A stretch of DNA of 21,209 bases from a virus: positions 24,073-45,281 of IMG/VR virus record IMGVR_UViG_3300030104_002792; one strand, written 5' to 3'. The notes beneath the pieces are model-generated. The model saw only the letters and a list, made by a program, of their open reading frames with translations. It ran no database searches and was not told where the DNA came from. The position numbers and the translations under genes are program-made. Positions within the stretch are counted from its first letter, which is position 1. Each line of letters starts with the position of its first letter. Shown here in pieces: positions 11,501-19,358 of this stretch.

Positions 11501-12264
11501 CTGTTGTTAGTCATGCTGGTATAGCCAATAGAATTAAAAATCTATTGAGTGCTATATCTCAACATGGAGATGTGAGTATTTTGCATGATACAATATCTTT
11601 TATTTTTCCTTCTCTTCGTAAGGTAGATGAGGTTGAACAAGAGTATCCTGAAGACTGGAGATTATATGTTGCTCCTGATGAAGAGAAACATATACCAGAT
11701 TATAAGACTATTGATCTTTTATATGAAAGAACACCAGAATATTTTGTAAAAAAATATCTTAATATTATTCATAAATTAAAAATTAATTCAGAGATAATAG
11801 AATATGTTTCTGAGTCTACTGATACATGGGATGATATGGTAGGAGTCCATATTAGATCATGGTATTGTCCTAAGAAAGTATTTCATAGTAATGAGATATT
11901 TGAAAACCAGATAGATAAATTACCAGAAGATAAGAAGTTCTTTTTCTGTTCTGATAATTCTGATGTTCAACAACATTTTGTAGATAAGTATGGTGATAGA
12001 GTTGTCACATATGAAAGGCAGATGTTTAATGATCCTAGATTAGCTGAGTCTGGACATCATGATGATATACAATTAACAACTGATGCTTTTATTGAGTTGT
12101 TAATGTTATCAAAATGTGCTACAATTGTTGGTACATATGCTAGTTCTTTTGATGAATTAGCATGGTGGATGAGTGGGTGTAAATCTAAAGTGATTATTCC
12201 TACTCCTATTAATTGTGATAAAGAATTCCAAGATTTTAACAATTTGATTTACGTAAAAAAATGA
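11494..12264 (+). CDS. O-fucosyltransferase/NodZ-like GT-B transferase, copy 1
   Basis: 256 aa protein with the architecture of GDP-fucose-dependent GT-B transferases outside GT11 (GT23/NodZ and O-FucT relatives). It has an N-terminal GIANRIKN loop (9-16), the central DDMVGVHIRS (113-122) with the HxR pair His119/Arg121, and a C-terminal segment (TYASSFDELAWWMSG) equivalent to the donor-binding S/T-S-F region. It is a paralogue of the protein at 17711: both contain YKTID.LY..TP.YF..KYL and WDxxDMVGVHxR. No membrane segment or signal peptide. The start overlaps the preceding GT11 stop by 7 bases. Probable GDP-L-sugar transferase; exact family and acceptor unresolved. Confidence 0.7.
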   Translation: MVTVVSHAGIANRIKNLLSAISQHGDVSILHDTISFIFPSLRKVDEVEQEYPEDWRLYVAPDEEKHIPDYKTIDLLYERTPEYFVKKYLNIIHKLKINSEIIEYVSESTDTWDDMVGVHIRSWYCPKKVFHSNEIFENQIDKLPEDKKFFFCSDNSDVQQHFVDKYGDRVVTYERQMFNDPRLAESGHHDDIQLTTDAFIELLMLSKCATIVGTYASSFDELAWWMSGCKSKVIIPTPINCDKEFQDFNNLIYVKK

Positions 12265-13019
12265 TTACACTAGAAGCAACTAAACAAGTAGCAGATGATT
12301 CACCAGATCATATTTGTCCTGTAGGTGCGGTAAGAGATAACTTTACTTCTCAAGGATTGATTGATGAAGTTAAGGATGGATTTGATGATGAACAAATTTC
12401 TGTATTGGATCTTGGATGTGCTGGAGCACAATTTGTTGTTGACTTTATTAATAAAGGTGATATAGGAGTAGGTTTAGAAGGAAGTAGCACTTCTCTTACA
12501 GGTGTAGGAAAAGAGAATTGGGATAAGTATCATGATAAGAATTTATTTTTATGTGATATTACAAAGGACTATCAACTATATGAAGATGGTGAACCTATGC
12601 AATTTGATTTCATTCATTCAGAAGAAGTCTTTGAGCACATAGCACCTGATGATGTTGATCCTATGCTTAAAAATATCTTTAAGCATTTGAAAGAAGGAGG
12701 TCTTTGTGTCTTTGGAGTTTCTTTAGTTCCTGATGTAAGGAATGAAAAGGGTGAGGATATGGTACCACCATTTGCACCAGAGGATAGAACGATTGGATAT
12801 GAAGGTAAGTTATTTACTCTTCATCAATCTGTGTTTCCTGCTACATGGTGGAAGGAAAAGATAGAGTCTAATGGATTTAAAATATTTGAAGAAGGGTTGC
12901 ATAATAAGAATCATTTTGGATATCTTTTTGATCACATAGTTCGTGGTGCTGGATATTCTGGCAATGTTGCTGGATATCAAGGATGGGATGAATCTGCATA
13001 CTTCTGTTGTACAAAATGA
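12261..13019 (+). CDS. Class I SAM-dependent methyltransferase, copy 1
   Basis: 252 aa Rossmann-fold methyltransferase. Motif I is VLDLGCAGAQ (48-57), followed by an acidic loop GVGLEGS (69-75) at the end of beta 2 and FDFIHSEEVFEHI (about 113-125), the usual motif around beta 4. The N-terminus carries SPDHICPVGAVRDN (14-27), which recurs as SPDHIAPAGTIADN in the paralogue at 14768 and is not part of the generic fold, so it may recognise the shared substrate. Likely a sugar or sugar-nucleotide methyltransferase, but substrate and O-/C-/N-specificity are unknown. ATGA overlaps at both ends. Confidence 0.78.
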   Translation: MITLEATKQVADDSPDHICPVGAVRDNFTSQGLIDEVKDGFDDEQISVLDLGCAGAQFVVDFINKGDIGVGLEGSSTSLTGVGKENWDKYHDKNLFLCDITKDYQLYEDGEPMQFDFIHSEEVFEHIAPDDVDPMLKNIFKHLKEGGLCVFGVSLVPDVRNEKGEDMVPPFAPEDRTIGYEGKLFTLHQSVFPATWWKEKIESNGFKIFEEGLHNKNHFGYLFDHIVRGAGYSGNVAGYQGWDESAYFCCTK

Positions 13020-13843
13020 TTGATCTTAAACAATGCACCTTTATCATTCCTGTAAGGATTGAAAGTGAAGATAGGATGCGTAATGTTATTACAGTCCTTT
13101 GTTATCTTCTAGAAAATTTTGATACAAAAGTTATTCTGAAAGAAGTAGATACTGAATCTGTATTTGAGAAAGAAGTTCTACCACAGATTAAAGATTATCT
13201 TGGTGATGGTATCAATAATCTTACACATGTATTTGAGGAATCAGATGATCCTGTGTTCTATAGAATGAAGATTCTGAATGAGATGATTGATATGGCTGAC
13301 ACACCAGTCATTGCTAATTATGATGGTGATGTTTTGTTCAAACCAGAAACATATACCAAATCAGTTGAGATGGTTGAAGAAGGATATGATATAGTATATC
13401 CATATGGGTTTGGAGAATACCAGAAGCAGGTATTTGCTGATGATAATGATGTAAGTGAATTTCTTTCTGAGGATTTTGATTTTGATATTCTAGATAAGAA
13501 ATCAAAGATGTATGATGCTCAGTATGGACATGTTCAATTTGTGAGTAGGAAGTCTTATATAGAAGCAGGAATGGAGAATGAAAACTTTAGAGGTTCATCA
13601 CCCGAAGATAAGGAGAGATTCTATAGATTTGACAAAATGGGATATAAGGTTGGTAGAATAGATGATGAAGTATATCATTTAGAACATAGTAGAGGTAGAA
13701 ATTCTTGGCCTAATTCTGTTGAAGGTAATCCATACATGAAAGAAAATTTTAATGTATGGGAATCTATTCAGAAGATGACTGGAGAAGAATTGAAAGAATA
13801 CTATTCTAGTCAGGAGTATCTTAAAAAGTATGTTAGTTGCTAG
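13016..13843 (+). CDS. GT-A glycosyltransferase with galactosyltransferase-type C-terminal motif
   Basis: 275 aa from the ATG at 13016. A TTG at 13007 would add three residues, but 13016 gives the standard ATGA overlap. The first strand CTFIIPVRIES (7-17) is GT2-like, DGD at 103-105 (IANYDGDVLF) is the DXD motif, and FRGSSPEDKERFYRF (191-205) matches the acceptor-side motif of Glyco_transf_7C-type galactosyltransferases (FxGxxxEDxxfxxR), followed by a Gly-Tyr-Lys-Val strand. A His-rich segment (VYHLEHSRG, 219-227) supplies a possible metal ligand, as in those enzymes. Soluble. The 3' end overlaps the kinase gene by 14 bases. Glycosyltransferase is likely; the transferred sugar is unknown. Confidence 0.75.
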   Translation: MIDLKQCTFIIPVRIESEDRMRNVITVLCYLLENFDTKVILKEVDTESVFEKEVLPQIKDYLGDGINNLTHVFEESDDPVFYRMKILNEMIDMADTPVIANYDGDVLFKPETYTKSVEMVEEGYDIVYPYGFGEYQKQVFADDNDVSEFLSEDFDFDILDKKSKMYDAQYGHVQFVSRKSYIEAGMENENFRGSSPEDKERFYRFDKMGYKVGRIDDEVYHLEHSRGRNSWPNSVEGNPYMKENFNVWESIQKMTGEELKEYYSSQEYLKKYVSC

Positions 13844-14777
13844 TTGTCCTTTAAGAATTTCTTTGTTTGGGGGTTCTTCAGACAATCCTTATTTTGTGGA
13901 GAAGTATGGGTATGGTTCTGTTATTAGTTTTACATGTGACTTAAAAACATATGTAACTATTAGTCAGGATAAGATAGGATTTAATAAACAAAAGCATAAG
14001 TATCTCATAAACTATTCAAAGAGAGAAGAAGTTTCTAGTATTGGAGAAATACAGAATGAAGTAATAAGAACTGTATTGGAACATTTTGATATGCCACCAG
14101 TTCAAATTACTCTCACTAGTGATGCTTATTCGCAAGGAAGTGGACTAGCATCTTCTTCTTCTTATACTATAAGTCTTATTAAAGCTTGTTGTTTGTTCTT
14201 AGGAATTTCTATAACAGAGAATGATGCTTGTAAATTAGCATATAAACTTGAAAGAATTTATAATCCTTATTGTGGGTATCAAGATCCATATGGTTGTGGT
14301 ATCGGAGGGTTTAAAAGGATTGAGTTTATGGGTGGTGATCGTATTAAGTATGAGTTTTTATCTACTGATATATTTGATCATTATGATACACACCTTGTTT
14401 TTACTGGTGTCACTAGAAACTCTAAAGCAATCCTCAAAAACATCACGGATAACTTGGAGAAAGTTAAACCAGTTTTAGAGACAGTAGATTATGCTTATGA
14501 TAGTCTTATTAAAAATGATTATACAACTTTCTTTGAACATTTAAATAATGGTTGGAAACAAAAGAAAGAAACAAGCACTTCTATATGTGAGAATGAAAAG
14601 ATTATTGAAATAGATAATGTCTTAGAAAATAACGAAAGTGTTATCGCACATAAATTATGTGGAGCAGGTAATGGAGGTTTCTTTTTAGCATTCTCTAGTA
14701 AAGAAAGCTTGAATATTCCTTATAAATCTGTTAGAATAAATGTATCACCAAATGGAGTTATGGGTAGATGTCTTTGA
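13830..14777 (+). CDS. GHMP kinase, D-glycero-D-manno-heptose 7-phosphate kinase-like
   Basis: 315 aa GHMP-superfamily kinase most like HddA, which phosphorylates C1 of D-glycero-D-manno-heptose 7-phosphate. N-terminal motif CPLRISLFGGSSDNP (6-20) corresponds to the RAPLRISFGGGGTD start of HddA. The ATP loop (motif 2) is QGSGLASSSS (102-111), motif 3 is GAGNGGFFLAF (278-288), and GYQDPYG (149-155) matches the KQDQYA segment. Length fits HddA (about 320-340). The next genes but one are a GmhA-like isomerase and a HAD-nucleotidyltransferase fusion, the partners needed to reach an NDP-heptose, which supports heptose over other GHMP substrates. The start overlaps the upstream GT by 14 bases; no better ATG exists. 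hddA-like by motif and context; substrate not proven. Confidence 0.8.
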   Translation: MLVASCPLRISLFGGSSDNPYFVEKYGYGSVISFTCDLKTYVTISQDKIGFNKQKHKYLINYSKREEVSSIGEIQNEVIRTVLEHFDMPPVQITLTSDAYSQGSGLASSSSYTISLIKACCLFLGISITENDACKLAYKLERIYNPYCGYQDPYGCGIGGFKRIEFMGGDRIKYEFLSTDIFDHYDTHLVFTGVTRNSKAILKNITDNLEKVKPVLETVDYAYDSLIKNDYTTFFEHLNNGWKQKKETSTSICENEKIIEIDNVLENNESVIAHKLCGAGNGGFFLAFSSKESLNIPYKSVRINVSPNGVMGRCL

Positions 14778-15580
14778 TTACGTTAGAAACAGAGTATCCT
14801 GTTGCTATTGATTCGCCAGATCATATAGCACCAGCAGGAACAATTGCTGACAATAGAACTGATAAAGATTATATGAGAGCAGTAAAAGAATATTTTGGTG
14901 GGTCTAAAGACACTAAGGTATTGGATATGGGATGTGCTGGTGGGCAAATGATTGCTGACTTTGTAGAGGGTGGATATACTGCTGTTGGATTGGAAGGTTC
15001 CACTCATGCACATCAAGGAGCAGGTGCTGCTAATTGGAGTAAGTATCTGAATAAGAATTTCTTCAATGTTGATTTGGCAAAACCATTTCAATTGAAGGAA
15101 GATGGTGAAGATATGAAGTTCAACTTCATTCATAGTTGGGATGTTATTGAACATATCCATCCTGATGATTTGGGTATATGGTTTGATAATGTCAAGAATC
15201 ATTTAGCAGATGATGGTGTATTCTGTTGTGTTCTTGCTACTACTCCTGATTATGAACATGTAGATGGTGAGTTAGTAATACGTCATCAGTCAATGTTTAA
15301 TTCTGCTGAGTGGATAAACATTTTTTTTGATAATGGTTTTGAACTTTGTGTAGAGAATGATTGGCATTCATATCCTGTAGGAAGAAACTATCCTGATAGT
15401 GTTAAACCACAATGTTTCCATGAAGCTGCTGGTGTGGTTGGAACAGAAAATGGATTATACTTTGGATACTTATTTGGAGATGCTCAATTTAGTAATCATG
15501 ATAATAAAGGAGCAAACATTTATTTCTGTGTAAGAAAGAAACAGAATCATACACAACGTATACCATCTAATTGGGATTAA
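14768..15580 (+). CDS. Class I SAM-dependent methyltransferase, copy 2
   Basis: 270 aa paralogue of the methyltransferase at 12261. Motif I is VLDMGCAGGQ (51-60), then AVGLEGSTH (72-80), then FNFIHSWDVIEHIHPDD. The shared N-terminal signature SPDHIAPAGTIADN is at 16-29. Compared with copy 1 it has a longer C-terminal tail rich in basic and amide residues. It is embedded between the heptose kinase and isomerase genes, with a 10-base overlap upstream and 4 bases of spacing downstream, so it may methylate the heptose-derived sugar. Methyltransferase class is firm, substrate inferred. Confidence 0.78.
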   Translation: MSLITLETEYPVAIDSPDHIAPAGTIADNRTDKDYMRAVKEYFGGSKDTKVLDMGCAGGQMIADFVEGGYTAVGLEGSTHAHQGAGAANWSKYLNKNFFNVDLAKPFQLKEDGEDMKFNFIHSWDVIEHIHPDDLGIWFDNVKNHLADDGVFCCVLATTPDYEHVDGELVIRHQSMFNSAEWINIFFDNGFELCVENDWHSYPVGRNYPDSVKPQCFHEAAGVVGTENGLYFGYLFGDAQFSNHDNKGANIYFCVRKKQNHTQRIPSNWD

Positions 15581-15584
15581 AATT

Positions 15585-16088
15585 ATGAATCCATTCAATG
15601 AATATATTGAAACTCTTAAATCTGCTCATATGGAAGTTGAGTTTTTTAAATTTCAGAAAGCATTTCACACTCACAATAGAATAATTATTTTGGGTAATGG
15701 TGGAAGTAATTCAGTTGCTTCACATATCTCACAAGACTATATGAAGTTTCATACTAAGAAAGTTTCTATTCTTTCTGATCCTTCTATGATTACTATGCTT
15801 ACTAATGACTTTGGTTATGATTTAGCATATCAAAAATTCTTAGAAAACTATGTTGAAAAAGATACTTTAGTAATTATTATGAGTTCTGGTGGGGAGTCTA
15901 AGAATATGTTGAACTGTGTAGATTGGTGTGAAGATAATAAAGTTTCATATGGAGTATTGACAGGATTTAAATCTAACAATACTATAAGAAATGAAGCAAC
16001 TAATGCACTATGGAATTATTATATTGAAAGTGATAGTTATGGTGTGGTAGAATGCGTACATCAAATATTCTTACATGGAGTAGTATGA
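15585..16088 (+). CDS. SIS-domain phosphoheptose isomerase, GmhA-like
   Basis: 167 aa single SIS domain of the GmhA group, which converts sedoheptulose 7-phosphate to D-glycero-D-manno-heptose 7-phosphate. The phosphate loop GNGGSNSVASHISQDY (37-52) matches GmhA GNGGSxxxAxHxxxe, and SSGGESKN (100-107) the second Ser-rich loop (STSGNSxN). The C-terminal helix ECVHQIFLH (156-164) carries His and Glu in the positions where GmhA places metal and active-site residues. It is shorter than the usual 190 or so residues, mainly at the N-terminal helix, which helps form the tetramer. It follows the methyltransferase with 4 bases of spacing and overlaps the HAD-nucleotidyltransferase gene by ATGA. GmhA assignment is good, helped by the adjacent heptose-type kinase. 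Confidence 0.82.
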   Translation: MNPFNEYIETLKSAHMEVEFFKFQKAFHTHNRIIILGNGGSNSVASHISQDYMKFHTKKVSILSDPSMITMLTNDFGYDLAYQKFLENYVEKDTLVIIMSSGGESKNMLNCVDWCEDNKVSYGVLTGFKSNNTIRNEATNALWNYYIESDSYGVVECVHQIFLHGVV

Positions 16089-16831
16089 AGTATTGTTTTG
16101 ATTTAGATGGGACTATATGTGATACTCCCTTAAGACCTTCTGATTTAAAACCAGGATATTTGGAAGCAACTCCTTTTCCATTTATGGTGGAACAGGTTAA
16201 TAGATTGTATGATGAAGGTAATCATATAATTATAATGACTGCTAGGGGTAGAGGTTCTGGTATTGATTGGACAGAATGGACAACCAAACAATTAGATATG
16301 TGGGGTGTCAAGTATCATGATCTTGAACCTATGTTTCATAAACCTACTGCCGATCTTTTTATAGATGATAAAGGTATTAGTGTAGAGGAATGGAAGAAAA
16401 CTGTACCACCTAAGAAAGGTATTATTGCAGGAGCATTTGATGTTATTCATCCTGGATATATTAGAATGTTTAAGGATGCCAAGGAACATTGTAATCATCT
16501 TACAGTTGCACTTCATCAGGATCCATCAGTTGCAAGACGCAATAAATTAAAACCAGTACAGACTGTAGAAGAACGTAAAGAGATACTACTTGCTCTTAGA
16601 GATATTGATGATGTGGTAGTATATCAAGAAGAAGAAACATTTTTATCTTACTTGAAAGATTATGATATTCGTTTTCTAGGAACAGATTATATGAATGGTA
16701 GTTATACTGGTAAAGATATTCCTATTGATATTGTTTGGTTAGATAGAGAGGGACATGATTATTCAAGCACTAAAATGAAAAGATTAATTTTTGAATCAAT
16801 TGCAGTAATGGGGCGTAGCGATTATGATTAG
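16085..16831 (+). CDS. HAD-family domain fused to a cytidylyltransferase-like nucleotidyltransferase
   Basis: 248 aa from the ATG at 16085. An upstream in-frame ATG at 16052 adds 11 unlikely residues, while 16085 forms the ATGA overlap and puts the HAD motif at the N-terminus. Residues 1-105 are a small HAD domain: motif I FDLDGTICD (5-13), motif II region MTARG (51-55), Lys86, and motif IV IDD (93-95). Residues 110-248 are a nucleotidylyltransferase: GAFDVIHPGY (116-125, the GxFDxxHxGH site), a VEERKEIL stretch (161-168) and YSSTKMKR (226-233), equivalent to the ISTT/CSTT nucleotide motif of TagD and the HldE C-terminal domain. Together they could dephosphorylate a heptose 1,7-bisphosphate and activate the 1-phosphate as an NDP-sugar. 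The HAD part is shorter than GmhB and lacks its Zn loop, so that step is inference. CDP-glycerol-type products remain possible. Confidence 0.8.
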   Translation: MKYCFDLDGTICDTPLRPSDLKPGYLEATPFPFMVEQVNRLYDEGNHIIIMTARGRGSGIDWTEWTTKQLDMWGVKYHDLEPMFHKPTADLFIDDKGISVEEWKKTVPPKKGIIAGAFDVIHPGYIRMFKDAKEHCNHLTVALHQDPSVARRNKLKPVQTVEERKEILLALRDIDDVVVYQEEETFLSYLKDYDIRFLGTDYMNGSYTGKDIPIDIVWLDREGHDYSSTKMKRLIFESIAVMGRSDYD

Positions 16832-17714
16832 TTTAGTAACTGGTGGTGCAGGATTTATTGGTTCAAATCTTGTTGATTACTTATTGAGTAAAGGACATGA
16901 AGTAGTTTGTGTTGATAATGAAAGTGCAGAATGTAATGATAAGTTCTATTGGAATCCTAATGCCATTAATGTCAAAGCAGATGTAACTGACTATAAGGCT
17001 ATGAAAAATGTATTCACTGGTGTTGATTATGTTTTTCACTTTGCTGCTGAATCTAGATTGCAACCAGCAATTAAGAATCCTATTGAAGCAGTATATAAGA
17101 ACTGTGTAGGCACTACTACAGTATTGCAATGTGCTAGAGAAGCAGGTGTAAAGAGACTTGTTTATTCTTCTACATCTTCTGGTTATGGATTTAACCCATC
17201 ACCTAATATAGAAACACAACCTGATGATTGTTTGAATCCTTATTCAGCATCTAAGGTTGCTGCAGAAAAATTCTGTAAGATGTATAGTGATCTATATGGA
17301 CTTGAGACAGTTGTTTTAAGATACTTCAATGTATTTGGTGAGAGATCCCCTACTAGAGGACAGTATGCTCCTGTCATAGGTATATTCCAGAGACAAAAGG
17401 ATGCTGGAGAACCTCTTACTATCGTGGGTGATGGCACACAGAGAAGAGATTTTATCTATGTTGGAGATGTTGCAAGAGCAAATGAACTTGCTGCATTAAT
17501 GCCTGGTGTGAAAGGTCATTTGGGAGAAGTATTTAATGTAGGTAGTGGTATTAATTATTCTGTTCAAGAAATTGCCGATGCTATTTCAGATAATCAAACT
17601 TATATACCCAAAAGAGATGGTGAAATGGAGACCACGTGGTCTAATATAGATAAGGTTAATAAGGTTATAGGATGGAAACCAGAGGTTGATGTTTTGGAAT
17701 GGATTAAAGGATGA
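16824..17714 (+). CDS. NAD-dependent sugar-nucleotide epimerase, GalE/WbpP-like SDR
   Basis: 296 aa extended SDR. GGAGFIG is at 7-13, the Ser/Thr-rich catalytic segment SSTSSGYG at 115-122, the Tyr140/Lys144 pair in NPYSASK (138-144), and RYFNVFGERS follows, as in UDP-glucose/UDP-GlcNAc 4-epimerases. The DGTQRRDFIYVGDVA segment is likewise typical of this group and also of HldD, the ADP-heptose 6-epimerase. GalE/WbpP-type is the better match to the eye, but its position directly after the heptose-activation genes (8-base overlap) makes an NDP-heptose epimerase a real alternative. The C-terminus is compact (ends VLEWIKG), about 20-30 residues short of many family members. A 14-base palindrome lies near the 3' end. 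Confidence 0.82.
   Translation: MISLVTGGAGFIGSNLVDYLLSKGHEVVCVDNESAECNDKFYWNPNAINVKADVTDYKAMKNVFTGVDYVFHFAAESRLQPAIKNPIEAVYKNCVGTTTVLQCAREAGVKRLVYSSTSSGYGFNPSPNIETQPDDCLNPYSASKVAAEKFCKMYSDLYGLETVVLRYFNVFGERSPTRGQYAPVIGIFQRQKDAGEPLTIVGDGTQRRDFIYVGDVARANELAALMPGVKGHLGEVFNVGSGINYSVQEIADAISDNQTYIPKRDGEMETTWSNIDKVNKVIGWKPEVDVLEWIKG
17629..17642. repeat. 14-base perfect palindrome inside the epimerase gene
   Basis: AGACCACGTGGTCT reads the same on both strands and contains CACGTG. It falls in codons for Glu-Thr-Thr-Trp-Ser and uses ACC and ACG, which are uncommon here. About one 14-base palindrome is expected by chance in a random sequence of this length, so it may have no function. Confidence 0.4.
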
Positions 17715-18622
17715 GTAAGTTTGTAGTATTAAAATCAGCTGGATTAGGAAACAGAATTAAATTATATGTTTCCTATTTACAAAGATATGATGAACTCTTA
17801 ATTGAGAAGGAACCTGATATGCATTTGTTTGATAATTTTAAATTATGTAATAAGGATGAAGATATAAAGATTCATCCATGGACTCATTCAGGGTGGAGAT
17901 TATTAGTTAATGAGGATGAAGAAGATTATTGTAGTGAATACAAAACCATAGATCAATTATATAATGATACTCCACAATATTTTATTGATAAGTATCTTCC
18001 TGTATGGCAGAAGTTGAGAATTAAACCAGAGGTTAAAAAAATTATTGATGACTTTACTGAGGATTGGGATAAAGATGACATGGTAGGAGTTCATGTCAGA
18101 ACTAATTTCCCTCCTGTAGATGATGGAAGTAGAAGTGTATGGATGGACTTTGCTGGATTTGAAAAAGAGATTGAAAAATATCCATCAACTCAGAAGTTTT
18201 TTCTTGCTACGGATCATGAACCAGTAGTTGCTCATTATAATTCTAAGTATCCAGAACAGATTATTACATTCCCTAAGAATGATATTGTTAGGCATGATAA
18301 TCATTCTGATAATATAGATCAAACTATTACAGCATTCATTGATATGTATTTGTTGTCACAGTGTTATAAGAAATTGATATTAACATGGGCAACTTCCTTC
18401 TCAGAATGCTCTTGGTGGTTTGGTGGATGCAAGGCAGAAGTTGTAATGCCAACACTTTGGGATAAAGTTCCTGAAGATTTCTTCAAAATCATTTACAATA
18501 AGAAGGGTATGTCCTATAATCTAGGAGGAAAACCAGTCTTCGCAGAAGGTTGTCGTACTTATGCTCCTTTAAATATGGGAGATAATTATACAATAAAAAA
18601 TTGGAGGGTTCACAATGAATAG
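17711..18622 (+). CDS. O-fucosyltransferase/NodZ-like GT-B transferase, copy 2
   Basis: 303 aa paralogue of the protein at 11494. It has GLGNRIK (11-17), MVGVHVRTN (124-132) with HxR at His128/Arg130, and a C-terminal TWATSFSECSWWFGG equivalent to the TYASSFDELAWWMSG of copy 1. Shared linear segments include YKTIDQLYNDTPQYF and a WDxDDMVGVH stretch. The extra 40-50 residues at the C-terminus (from KKGMSYNLGG) are absent from copy 1 and may alter the acceptor site. The GNRIK and HxR elements point to a GDP-L-fucose-type donor, but no precise family can be fixed by eye. Soluble. ATGA overlap upstream and 8-base overlap with the NAD synthetase gene. Confidence 0.7.
   Translation: MSKFVVLKSAGLGNRIKLYVSYLQRYDELLIEKEPDMHLFDNFKLCNKDEDIKIHPWTHSGWRLLVNEDEEDYCSEYKTIDQLYNDTPQYFIDKYLPVWQKLRIKPEVKKIIDDFTEDWDKDDMVGVHVRTNFPPVDDGSRSVWMDFAGFEKEIEKYPSTQKFFLATDHEPVVAHYNSKYPEQIITFPKNDIVRHDNHSDNIDQTITAFIDMYLLSQCYKKLILTWATSFSECSWWFGGCKAEVVMPTLWDKVPEDFFKIIYNKKGMSYNLGGKPVFAEGCRTYAPLNMGDNYTIKNWRVHNE
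18603..18608 (+). promoter_or_regulatory. Strong ribosome binding site of the NAD synthetase gene
   Basis: GGAGGG lies 6 bases before the ATG at 18615, inside the last codons of the preceding transferase. It supports this start and suggests that NAD synthetase is translated at its own rate rather than only by coupling. Confidence 0.7.
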
Positions 18623-19358
18623 AATTAAAGATTATGATAGTCTATCATTTGATATTGATAGATGGTTAAAAGATTATTATTACATGTATGCTCTTAAAGC
18701 ATTTGTGGTAGGTGTATCAGGAGGAATCGATTCTGCTGTTGTATCTACTCTTTGTGCTAAGACAGGACTTCCTACTTATGTTCTGACTATGCCTCTTCAT
18801 TCTAAGGAAGAGAATACAGAGTTATCAGAACTACATGCTTATGGATTAGTTGAGAAGTATTCTAACGTGACATTAGTAAACGTTGATTTGTCTGAAACAT
18901 ATGATAAGTTTATGTTCTGGATAGATAATACATTTACTAGTAATAAACTTGCGAATGCGAATACAAAGTCCCGTCTTAGGATGGTTAGTCTCTATCAGGT
19001 TGCAGGATCTGTTGGAGGTATTGTTGTTGGTACAGGTAACAAGGTAGAAGATTATGGAGTGGGTTTTTATACTAAGTATGGTGACGGTGGCGTTGACATT
19101 GCACCAATTGCTGACCTCTACAAAACCGAAGTCTGGGAGTTAGGAAAGCATCTTGGAGTAGATGAACGCATAGTTAATGCAGTTCCTACTGATGGTCTAT
19201 GGGATGATGGTAGAAAGGATGAAGATCAGATTGGTGCTTCTTATGAGCAATTGGAAGAAGCAATGGAGTATAGAAGAGGCCCTGCCGTGGATATATTAGA
19301 TGAATTTAATATGAAAAACAAACACAAAATGGAACCTATCCCCACATTTAAATTATGA
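18615..19358 (+). CDS. nadE: NH3-dependent NAD+ synthetase
   Basis: 247 aa N-type ATP pyrophosphatase that amidates nicotinic acid adenine dinucleotide to NAD+, using ammonia and ATP. The PP-loop SGGIDS is at 35-40. The NadE-specific substrate region is present: GTGNKVEDYGVGFYTKYGDG (139-158), then DIAPIADLYKTEVW (161-174). The C-terminal PTDGLWDDGRKDEDQIG stretch matches the Pxx-GLW-x-x-x-x-DE-x-x-G lid motif. There is no glutaminase domain, so it depends on free ammonia; the length is near the bacterial short form (about 245-275). This is unusual in a glycan cluster. Four NAD-dependent SDRs and a UDP-glucose dehydrogenase nearby suggest it supports cofactor supply. A sugar-amidating PP-loop enzyme (WbpG-like) was considered, but the NadE motifs argue against it. 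Confidence 0.9.
   Translation: MNRIKDYDSLSFDIDRWLKDYYYMYALKAFVVGVSGGIDSAVVSTLCAKTGLPTYVLTMPLHSKEENTELSELHAYGLVEKYSNVTLVNVDLSETYDKFMFWIDNTFTSNKLANANTKSRLRMVSLYQVAGSVGGIVVGTGNKVEDYGVGFYTKYGDGGVDIAPIADLYKTEVWELGKHLGVDERIVNAVPTDGLWDDGRKDEDQIGASYEQLEEAMEYRRGPAVDILDEFNMKNKHKMEPIPTFKL

Follow-up and report, generated by a model that had tools for sequence, protein, structure and literature searches.

How a probable virus of phototrophs might activate a sugar is the question raised by a compact gene block in a stretch of viral DNA of 21,209 nucleotides (hereafter the window), which covers positions 24073-45281 of the partial, 45,281-base virus record IMGVR_UViG_3300030104_002792. The first-pass annotation had noticed a kinase, an isomerase and a fusion protein within 3 kb and had taken these three genes for a whole route from sedoheptulose 7-phosphate to activated heptose. 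All three are present on the + strand, namely an HddA/WcbL-like GHMP kinase (13830-14777), a SIS isomerase of the GmhA fold (15585-16088), and a HAD phosphatase::nucleotidyltransferase fusion (16085-16831), and profile comparison places the kinase nearest HddA, the isomerase nearest GmhA, and the transferase in the TagD/HldC type. That gene list lacked a class I methyltransferase in the gap between kinase and isomerase (14768-15580, + strand) and a GalE-like extended short-chain dehydrogenase/reductase (SDR) encoded directly after the fusion (16824-17714, + strand), which is the fourth member of a conserved block. The four activities of the route are indeed covered at the level of family, but the SDR belongs with them and the HAD domain has no match to the phosphatase family GmhB. 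Its probable product is a heptose activated by a nucleotide and destined for a glycan of the surface or the virion, so far as the evidence on the block goes.

The co-occurrence of kinase, SIS, fusion, and SDR exceeds chance. A search with the kinase alone recovered 61 viral loci with 53 distinct kinases, of which 11 were excluded as cut short and 42 had at least 3.5 kb downstream. SIS, fusion, and SDR all lay near the kinase in 40 of these 42, the two exceptions being one locus without the SDR (L186) and one whose fusion lacks its HAD half (L227). When the nucleotidyltransferase domain alone was used (best 80 of 180 loci), HAD was fused to 67 of 69 distinct domains scoring above 150 bits. Pooling the kinase-selected, transferase-selected, and 35 fusion-selected loci gave 168 loci, in which 60 of 67 kinases had all partners and 85 of 88 transferase domains were fused; the pooled co-occurrence count is skewed towards the fusion and some contigs appear under more than one locus id, and the kinase-selected 40 of 42 is the figure relied on. 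The three unfused domains were found in L030 (HAD absent), as a second copy in L037, and in L293, where HAD and transferase occupy separate, overlapping frames. SIS stands within 1.6 kb of the kinase for 75 of 82 distinct kinases, adjacent in 58 and separated by an insert in 17, and the insert is a homologue of the window's methyltransferase in 16 of the 17, marking the latter as an optional module. Since the flanking genes differ among loci, the block moves as a unit. The first ATG of the fusion lies at 16052, and a start at 16085 gives an ATGA overlap with the SIS stop. The same 4-base overlap marks the fusion start in 60 of 60 measurable viral fusions, and 16085, adopted here in place of 16052, is likely the true start.

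The closest named relative carrying the block is Synechococcus phage SynMITS9220M01 (Kyanoviridae), in which gp204-gp207 encode kinase, SIS, fusion, and SDR side by side in the order of the window, with 70-73% identity for kinase, SIS, and fusion. Unlike the window, this phage has no methyltransferase insert, and its fusion is annotated as a 'hypothetical protein'. Its kinase, isomerase, and 6-epimerase have already been published as heptose-related lipopolysaccharide (LPS) genes, the fusion being unnamed in the available part of that paper (PMC7378029). Because of this kinship, the window's virus would be T4-like with a cyanobacterial host. The link to phototrophs drawn in the first-pass annotation thus holds by kinship, through this phage and through Prochlorococcus genomes that possess the block.

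The kinase matches NCBIfam HddA at 1.1e-27 (97.3 bits, below the curated cut-off of 600), and its best solved relatives are 3k85, 4n3o, and 4usk (5e-24 to 3e-21), the last of which we take to be WcbL. Residues R9, D18, S108-S110, Q151, and D152 of the window's kinase align with residues of chain 4usk. Mutations that abolish WcbL activity define a list of essential residues (PMC4691232), and counterparts of all those named in the accessible portion of that study are present in the window's kinase. In 82 of 82 distinct viral kinases R9, D18, S108, S109, Q151, and D152 are invariant (S110 lies outside this count), as are the counterparts of Q162, D22, and D163, given as heptose-binding residues of WcbL in the same portion (PMC4691232). 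Second, more canonical HddA-like kinases occur in SynMITS9220M01 (L001:9974-11977, 286.7 bits) and phage Bellamy (L252:5986-7959, 278.8 bits; cut-off 600), accompanied in Bellamy by two SDRs and a transferase resembling HddC (62.5 bits).

The SIS protein of 167 amino acids matches TIGR00441 gmhA at 6.5e-14 (52.3 bits, below the cut-off of 209.45). Its AlphaFold2 model (predicted local distance difference test, pLDDT, 91.8) gave template modelling (TM) scores of 0.89 to GmhA 5i01 and 0.88 to DiaA, which is not known to be an enzyme, and because DiaA ties with GmhA in fold, a DiaA-like, non-enzymatic reading of SIS arises. As judged from sequence, the placement of kinase and isomerase in heptose lineages (HddA, GmhA-like) is supported.

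The HAD domain of the fusion (16085-16408, + strand) matches phrog_1238 at 2.1e-27 and PDB 9iqw, the phage enzyme AfhF, at 1e-8, the latter being its only solved sequence relative in a search to E 10. The two share 36% (Foldseek) or 30% (VIA) identity and superpose with Z 12.3 and a root-mean-square deviation of 2.8 over 97 residues (VIA). The DxD motif, the threonine of motif II, the lysine of motif III, and the DD of motif IV are all present, with D6, D8, T52, K86, D94, and D95 invariant in A1 and A4; in the viral fusion of L170, SARG replaces TARG. Identity with GmhB was rejected, the fusion having no match to that family at 1e-3. AfhF-type HADs are often annotated as 'phosphoheptose isomerase' in phage records (for example NC_018855 and NC_014663, and also phrog_1238), which is misleading. 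The C-terminal domain (16412-16828, + strand) scores 1.6e-16 (60.4 bits) against TIGR02199 rfaE_dom_II and 2e-13 (50.5 bits) against TIGR01518, and it has the cytidylyltransferase-like fold, with Z 16.6 to TagD 1coz (123 residues) and 14.1 to HldC 5xf2 (119 residues).

Copies of the block also reside in cellular genomes. Among the matches listed in a scan of bacterial genomes (best 80 of 245 loci), the full block was found in Prochlorococcus AG-363-P08 and AG-363-P19, and in AG-363-M17 it is present with its kinase interrupted by a contig end. The neighbours of the Prochlorococcus copies were recognised by eye as ilvC, clpP, a CobD-like gene, and a sugar transferase. Within the family the fusion occurs in 5 of 400 genomes; the block is present in 4 of 4 genomes searched from the Prochlorococcus-group genus of G035, itself a single contig of 1,937,096 bases, and the fusion in 1 of 266 genomes of the genus of G212. 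A tree of 69 rows, one per distinct kinase and fusion pair and excluding loci without a full kinase or fusion such as L042, set four host rows on one side of a single branch (99/98) inside the main group. A contig labelled Acidimicrobiaceae (L041) also carries the block and clusters with viruses in the tree; it is probably a misbinned phage.

The role of the HAD domain is illuminated by genome G212, whose fusion has kept both motif I aspartates of the HAD domain but no longer has motif II, nor motifs III and IV in their standard form. At 2.8 kb from this decayed fusion lies a GmhB gene that, with 156.2 bits, passes the curated cut-off of 149.6, and the only rfaE_dom_II match of the genome is its own fusion. 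No GmhB match was obtained at 1e-3 in G001, G002, G003, and G035, in which the HAD domain is intact; G001 has a second rfaE_dom_II match elsewhere in its genome (47.7 bits). Across the family, 17 of 400 genomes have a GmhB above the cut-off, and 65 of 400 have one at 1e-15 when the cut-off is not applied. A decayed HAD with a GmhB gene nearby fits a GmhB-like role for the HAD domain. In the viral locus L030, where the HAD of the fusion is missing, a stand-alone HAD of the AfhF type lies about 7.8 kb upstream.

Heptose activation is described in the available text of PMC11573728 as isomerase, C1 kinase, phosphatase, and nucleotidyltransferase. In the route proposed here, the HddA-like kinase would phosphorylate C1; within the fusion, the N-terminal HAD domain would then remove the C7 phosphate, and the C-terminal domain would couple the 1-phosphate to a nucleotide, with CTP or ATP the most plausible donor; the resulting nucleoside diphosphate (NDP) sugar would then be epimerised or otherwise edited by the SDR and used by nearby glycosyltransferases. 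We infer the substrate, anomer, nucleotide, SDR reaction, and final glycan. Like the C. jejuni/WcbL (B. pseudomallei) system, the block combines a GmhA-fold isomerase with a phosphatase, a nucleotidyltransferase, and a GHMP kinase of the HddA type that has the essential residues. It differs in that the phosphatase of that system is GmhB and the transferase is HddC, which is unrelated to the TagD/HldC-type nucleotidyltransferase, whereas here an AfhF-type HAD is fused to a TagD/HldC-type domain and the zinc ligands of the isomerase are partly changed. The C. jejuni HddA-type kinase is reported, in the part of PMC10680097 at hand, to act with the guanylyltransferase HddC on the alpha anomer. With the ADP-heptose route (GmhA, HldE or HldA plus HldC, GmhB, and HldD) the block shares a transferase of the HldC/TagD superfamily, but that route uses a PfkB kinase and HldD in place of the GHMP kinase and GalE-like SDR, and the joining of transferase to phosphatase is not among the three HENase types set out in the available text of PMC11573728. 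As to supply, a transaldolase was found in 4 of 7 other records (SynMITS9220M01 and 3 of 6 other viral contigs); a search of the window's own record, itself partial, yielded none. Transaldolase makes and uses sedoheptulose 7-phosphate, and host carbon might be diverted into heptose.

Several observations weigh against the heptose assignment. None of kinase, SIS, and fusion reaches a curated NCBIfam equivalog cut-off, so that their names rest on lineage, residues, and context. According to the accessible text of PMC5705639, every GmhA orthologue has the zinc ligands H, E, Q, and H, and full activity depends on them, but the metal site of SIS reads H47, D51, E156, and H164, identical at two of four positions; SIS is for this reason not called a GmhA orthologue, and of the earlier label 'GmhA-like' the lineage and fold survive without two of the four ligands. 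The transferase is structurally nearer TagD than HldC, and HPGY (H122, Y125) replaces HxGH in all main-group rows shown in the alignment, so that the earlier TagD/HldE-C-type naming agrees in family but not in this motif. The SDR scores 171.6 bits against GalE and 110 bits against the heptose epimerase model TIGR02197 (cut-off 274.6), scores on which its identity with HldD was ruled out. The title of 9iqw names a D-arabinose 1,5-diphosphate phosphatase, AfhF of phage HY126; no description of 9IQW was found among the literature matches listed. Natural complementation by GmhB is documented in a single genome (G212), and G001, G002, and G003 are assembled in several contigs and could be missing sequence. 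The LPS core of Synechococcus is, moreover, said in the available text of PMC4377996 to be without heptose.

The D and E substitutions in the metal site of SIS are nearly invariant across the viral group; at E156, P occurs in 6 of 88 rows and a gap in 3, and the P rows are read as a misalignment of a distant group, with E found by eye at equal spacing. By eye, the H/D/E/H set was also recognised in the SIS of Caulobacter phage Cr30, which a single small gene separates from an HddA-type kinase, as well as in the SIS domain of L251. The latter belongs to a GmhB-like::GmhA-like fusion (L251:6064-7623) located 2.3 kb from an HddA-type kinase, in an unverified 'phage' record of faecal origin, which could be bacterial, and its GmhB-like part (104.3 bits, cut-off 149.6) is a further point on the unfavourable side. 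Cr30 and L251 tie the variant to heptose chemistry, though not firmly.

These features could also be read as the activation of another phosphorylated ketose-derived sugar by GmhA-like and HddA-like enzymes recruited with new specificity, as suggested by scores far below the equivalog cut-offs and by metal-site changes and an HPGY motif that are nearly invariant in the viral group. The invariant counterparts of the heptose-binding Q162, D22, and D163 of WcbL, the fusion of the same metal-site variant to a GmhB-like domain elsewhere, and the GmhB gene found where the HAD has decayed all speak for heptose instead, and we regard such a switch of substrate as unlikely. The main rival to heptose arises from AfhF, the one solved structure related in sequence to the HAD domain: the block would activate a pentose, from ribulose 5-phosphate via D-arabinose 5-phosphate, the 1,5-bisphosphate, and the 1-phosphate to NDP-arabinose, for decoration of DNA or glycan. 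The order of steps is identical and the substrate would likewise come from the pentose-phosphate pathway. According to the available portions of PMC13390438 and PMC6024577, coliphage HX01 belongs to Mosigvirus, as does RB69, a phage with arabinosylated DNA. In HX01 and Acinetobacter phage Acj9, an AfhF-type HAD stands alongside a KpsF/KdsD-type isomerase and a 561-amino-acid protein with a PF00483-type nucleotidyltransferase domain (PF00483 being tested for HX01 alone), and no GHMP kinase lies in the regions seen. The isomerase and nucleotidyltransferase of these clusters thus belong to other families than those of the window; profiles of the window's kinase and transferase had no match to the isomerase and 561-amino-acid proteins of HX01 and Acj9, the SIS profile reached 5-8 bits, and only the HAD domain is plainly common to both. 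In addition, none of 14 phage records with a relative of the kinase is named Escherichia phage (7 being 'Bacteriophage sp.'), 1 of 7 with a relative of SIS is (ECO95 1-6-1, 24.5% over 75% of the query), and genes of glycan type, by eye, adjoin the Prochlorococcus copies. Pentose activation accordingly seems quite improbable to us beside heptose activation.

The transferase half invites its own alternatives. The second histidine of HxGH is catalytic in the nucleotidyltransferase superfamily, and with tyrosine at that position the domain might be inactive or regulatory, leaving a protein that is a phosphatase only. Yet HPGY is constant in the main group without erosion, HAGH or HSGH stands at this place in five distinct distant fusions, virus L030 retains the domain at the same gene position though its HAD is lost, and a huge-phage protein (L250:7800-9176) joins a GHMP kinase to an HPGY nucleotidyltransferase, with a related SDR encoded next; loss of transferase activity is therefore hard to credit. 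The NTP-promiscuous STTR5 HENases carry the motif (F/L)XXGRSTT in the available description (PMC11573728); by eye it is absent from the window's transferase, in which Y226 precedes S-S-T. CDP-glycerol synthesis of the TagD kind was rejected on the grounds that TIGR01518 scores below TIGR02199 and that such a route has no use for the isomerase, kinase, and phosphatase linked here; because TagD ranks first by structure, this rejection rests mainly on the linkage. The CDP-6-glucitol route of C. jejuni was likewise set aside, the domain here matching PF01467 and not PF01128, the family to which the cytidylyltransferase of that route is assigned in the accessible text of PMC10918830.

The surroundings of the block are rich in sugar genes. 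The window holds 25 counted genes, all co-oriented, and most of those with a match among the 20 proteins searched against families are glycosyltransferases, sugar SDRs, or methyltransferases, some proteins being matchless. Genes for a DNA primase and for the two subunits of ribonucleotide reductase are among those upstream of the window in the same record. A second class I-type methyltransferase (12261-13019) has a start resembling that of the one inserted in the block, and a methylated sugar variant made through the insert is plausible. An NAD synthase-like gene (18615-19358; TIGR00552, above cut-off) lies within the sugar cluster, and L007 and L010 likewise have one downstream of their blocks.

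AfhF-type HADs further occur unfused beside heptose-like genes of another kind. P-TIM68 encodes a kinase resembling HldA (112.1 bits), an epimerase resembling HldD (184.6 bits), and a transferase resembling HldC (124.8 bits), all below cut-offs, together with a stand-alone AfhF-type HAD. Among viral HldC-like loci (best 80 of 105), 26 of the 80 were set aside at contig ends and 54 had at least 4 kb on both sides. Within 4 kb, these 54 showed an AfhF-type HAD in 42, an HldA-like kinase in 48, an HldD-like SDR in 8, and a match to GmhB or SIS in none. No SIS match was found near any of the best 80 of 105, an observation that speaks against their viruses having a complete route, and none of the 168 pooled viral loci had a GmhB match. 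Such loci could serve heptose or pentose routes, and the HldD-like gene, where present, favours heptose. A contig of 130,604 bases in a cyanobacterial genome (L149, G061:C3; also L434) looks viral and has adjacent HAD and HldC-like genes. Beside viral HldA- and HldC-like genes, stand-alone AfhF-type HADs may fill the same gap as the fused ones.

A commentary on a cross-kingdom survey of NDP-heptose enzymes gives the phosphatase as absent in viruses in its available text (PMC11461863), and the companion piece, in the part at hand, recognises three architectures of the nucleotidyltransferase, all of them lacking a phosphatase (PMC11573728). Among the papers listed in literature searches, no title or displayed abstract described a phosphatase::heptose-nucleotidyltransferase fusion, or the block in Prochlorococcus. 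Cyanophage heptose genes as such are known from the available text of PMC7378029; what is new is the fusion, its presence in host genomes, and a candidate for the phosphatase that viruses were reported to lack. It is about an even chance that AfhF-type HADs are overlooked viral heptose 1,7-bisphosphate phosphatases and that the fused form is a fourth heptose-activating architecture, common to cyanophages and a genus of the Prochlorococcus group. The cassette is thus a candidate both for the missing viral phosphatase step and for that fourth architecture, and if the sugar is heptose, it would constitute a surface-sugar module common to cyanophages and Prochlorococcus and fed by a Calvin-cycle intermediate.

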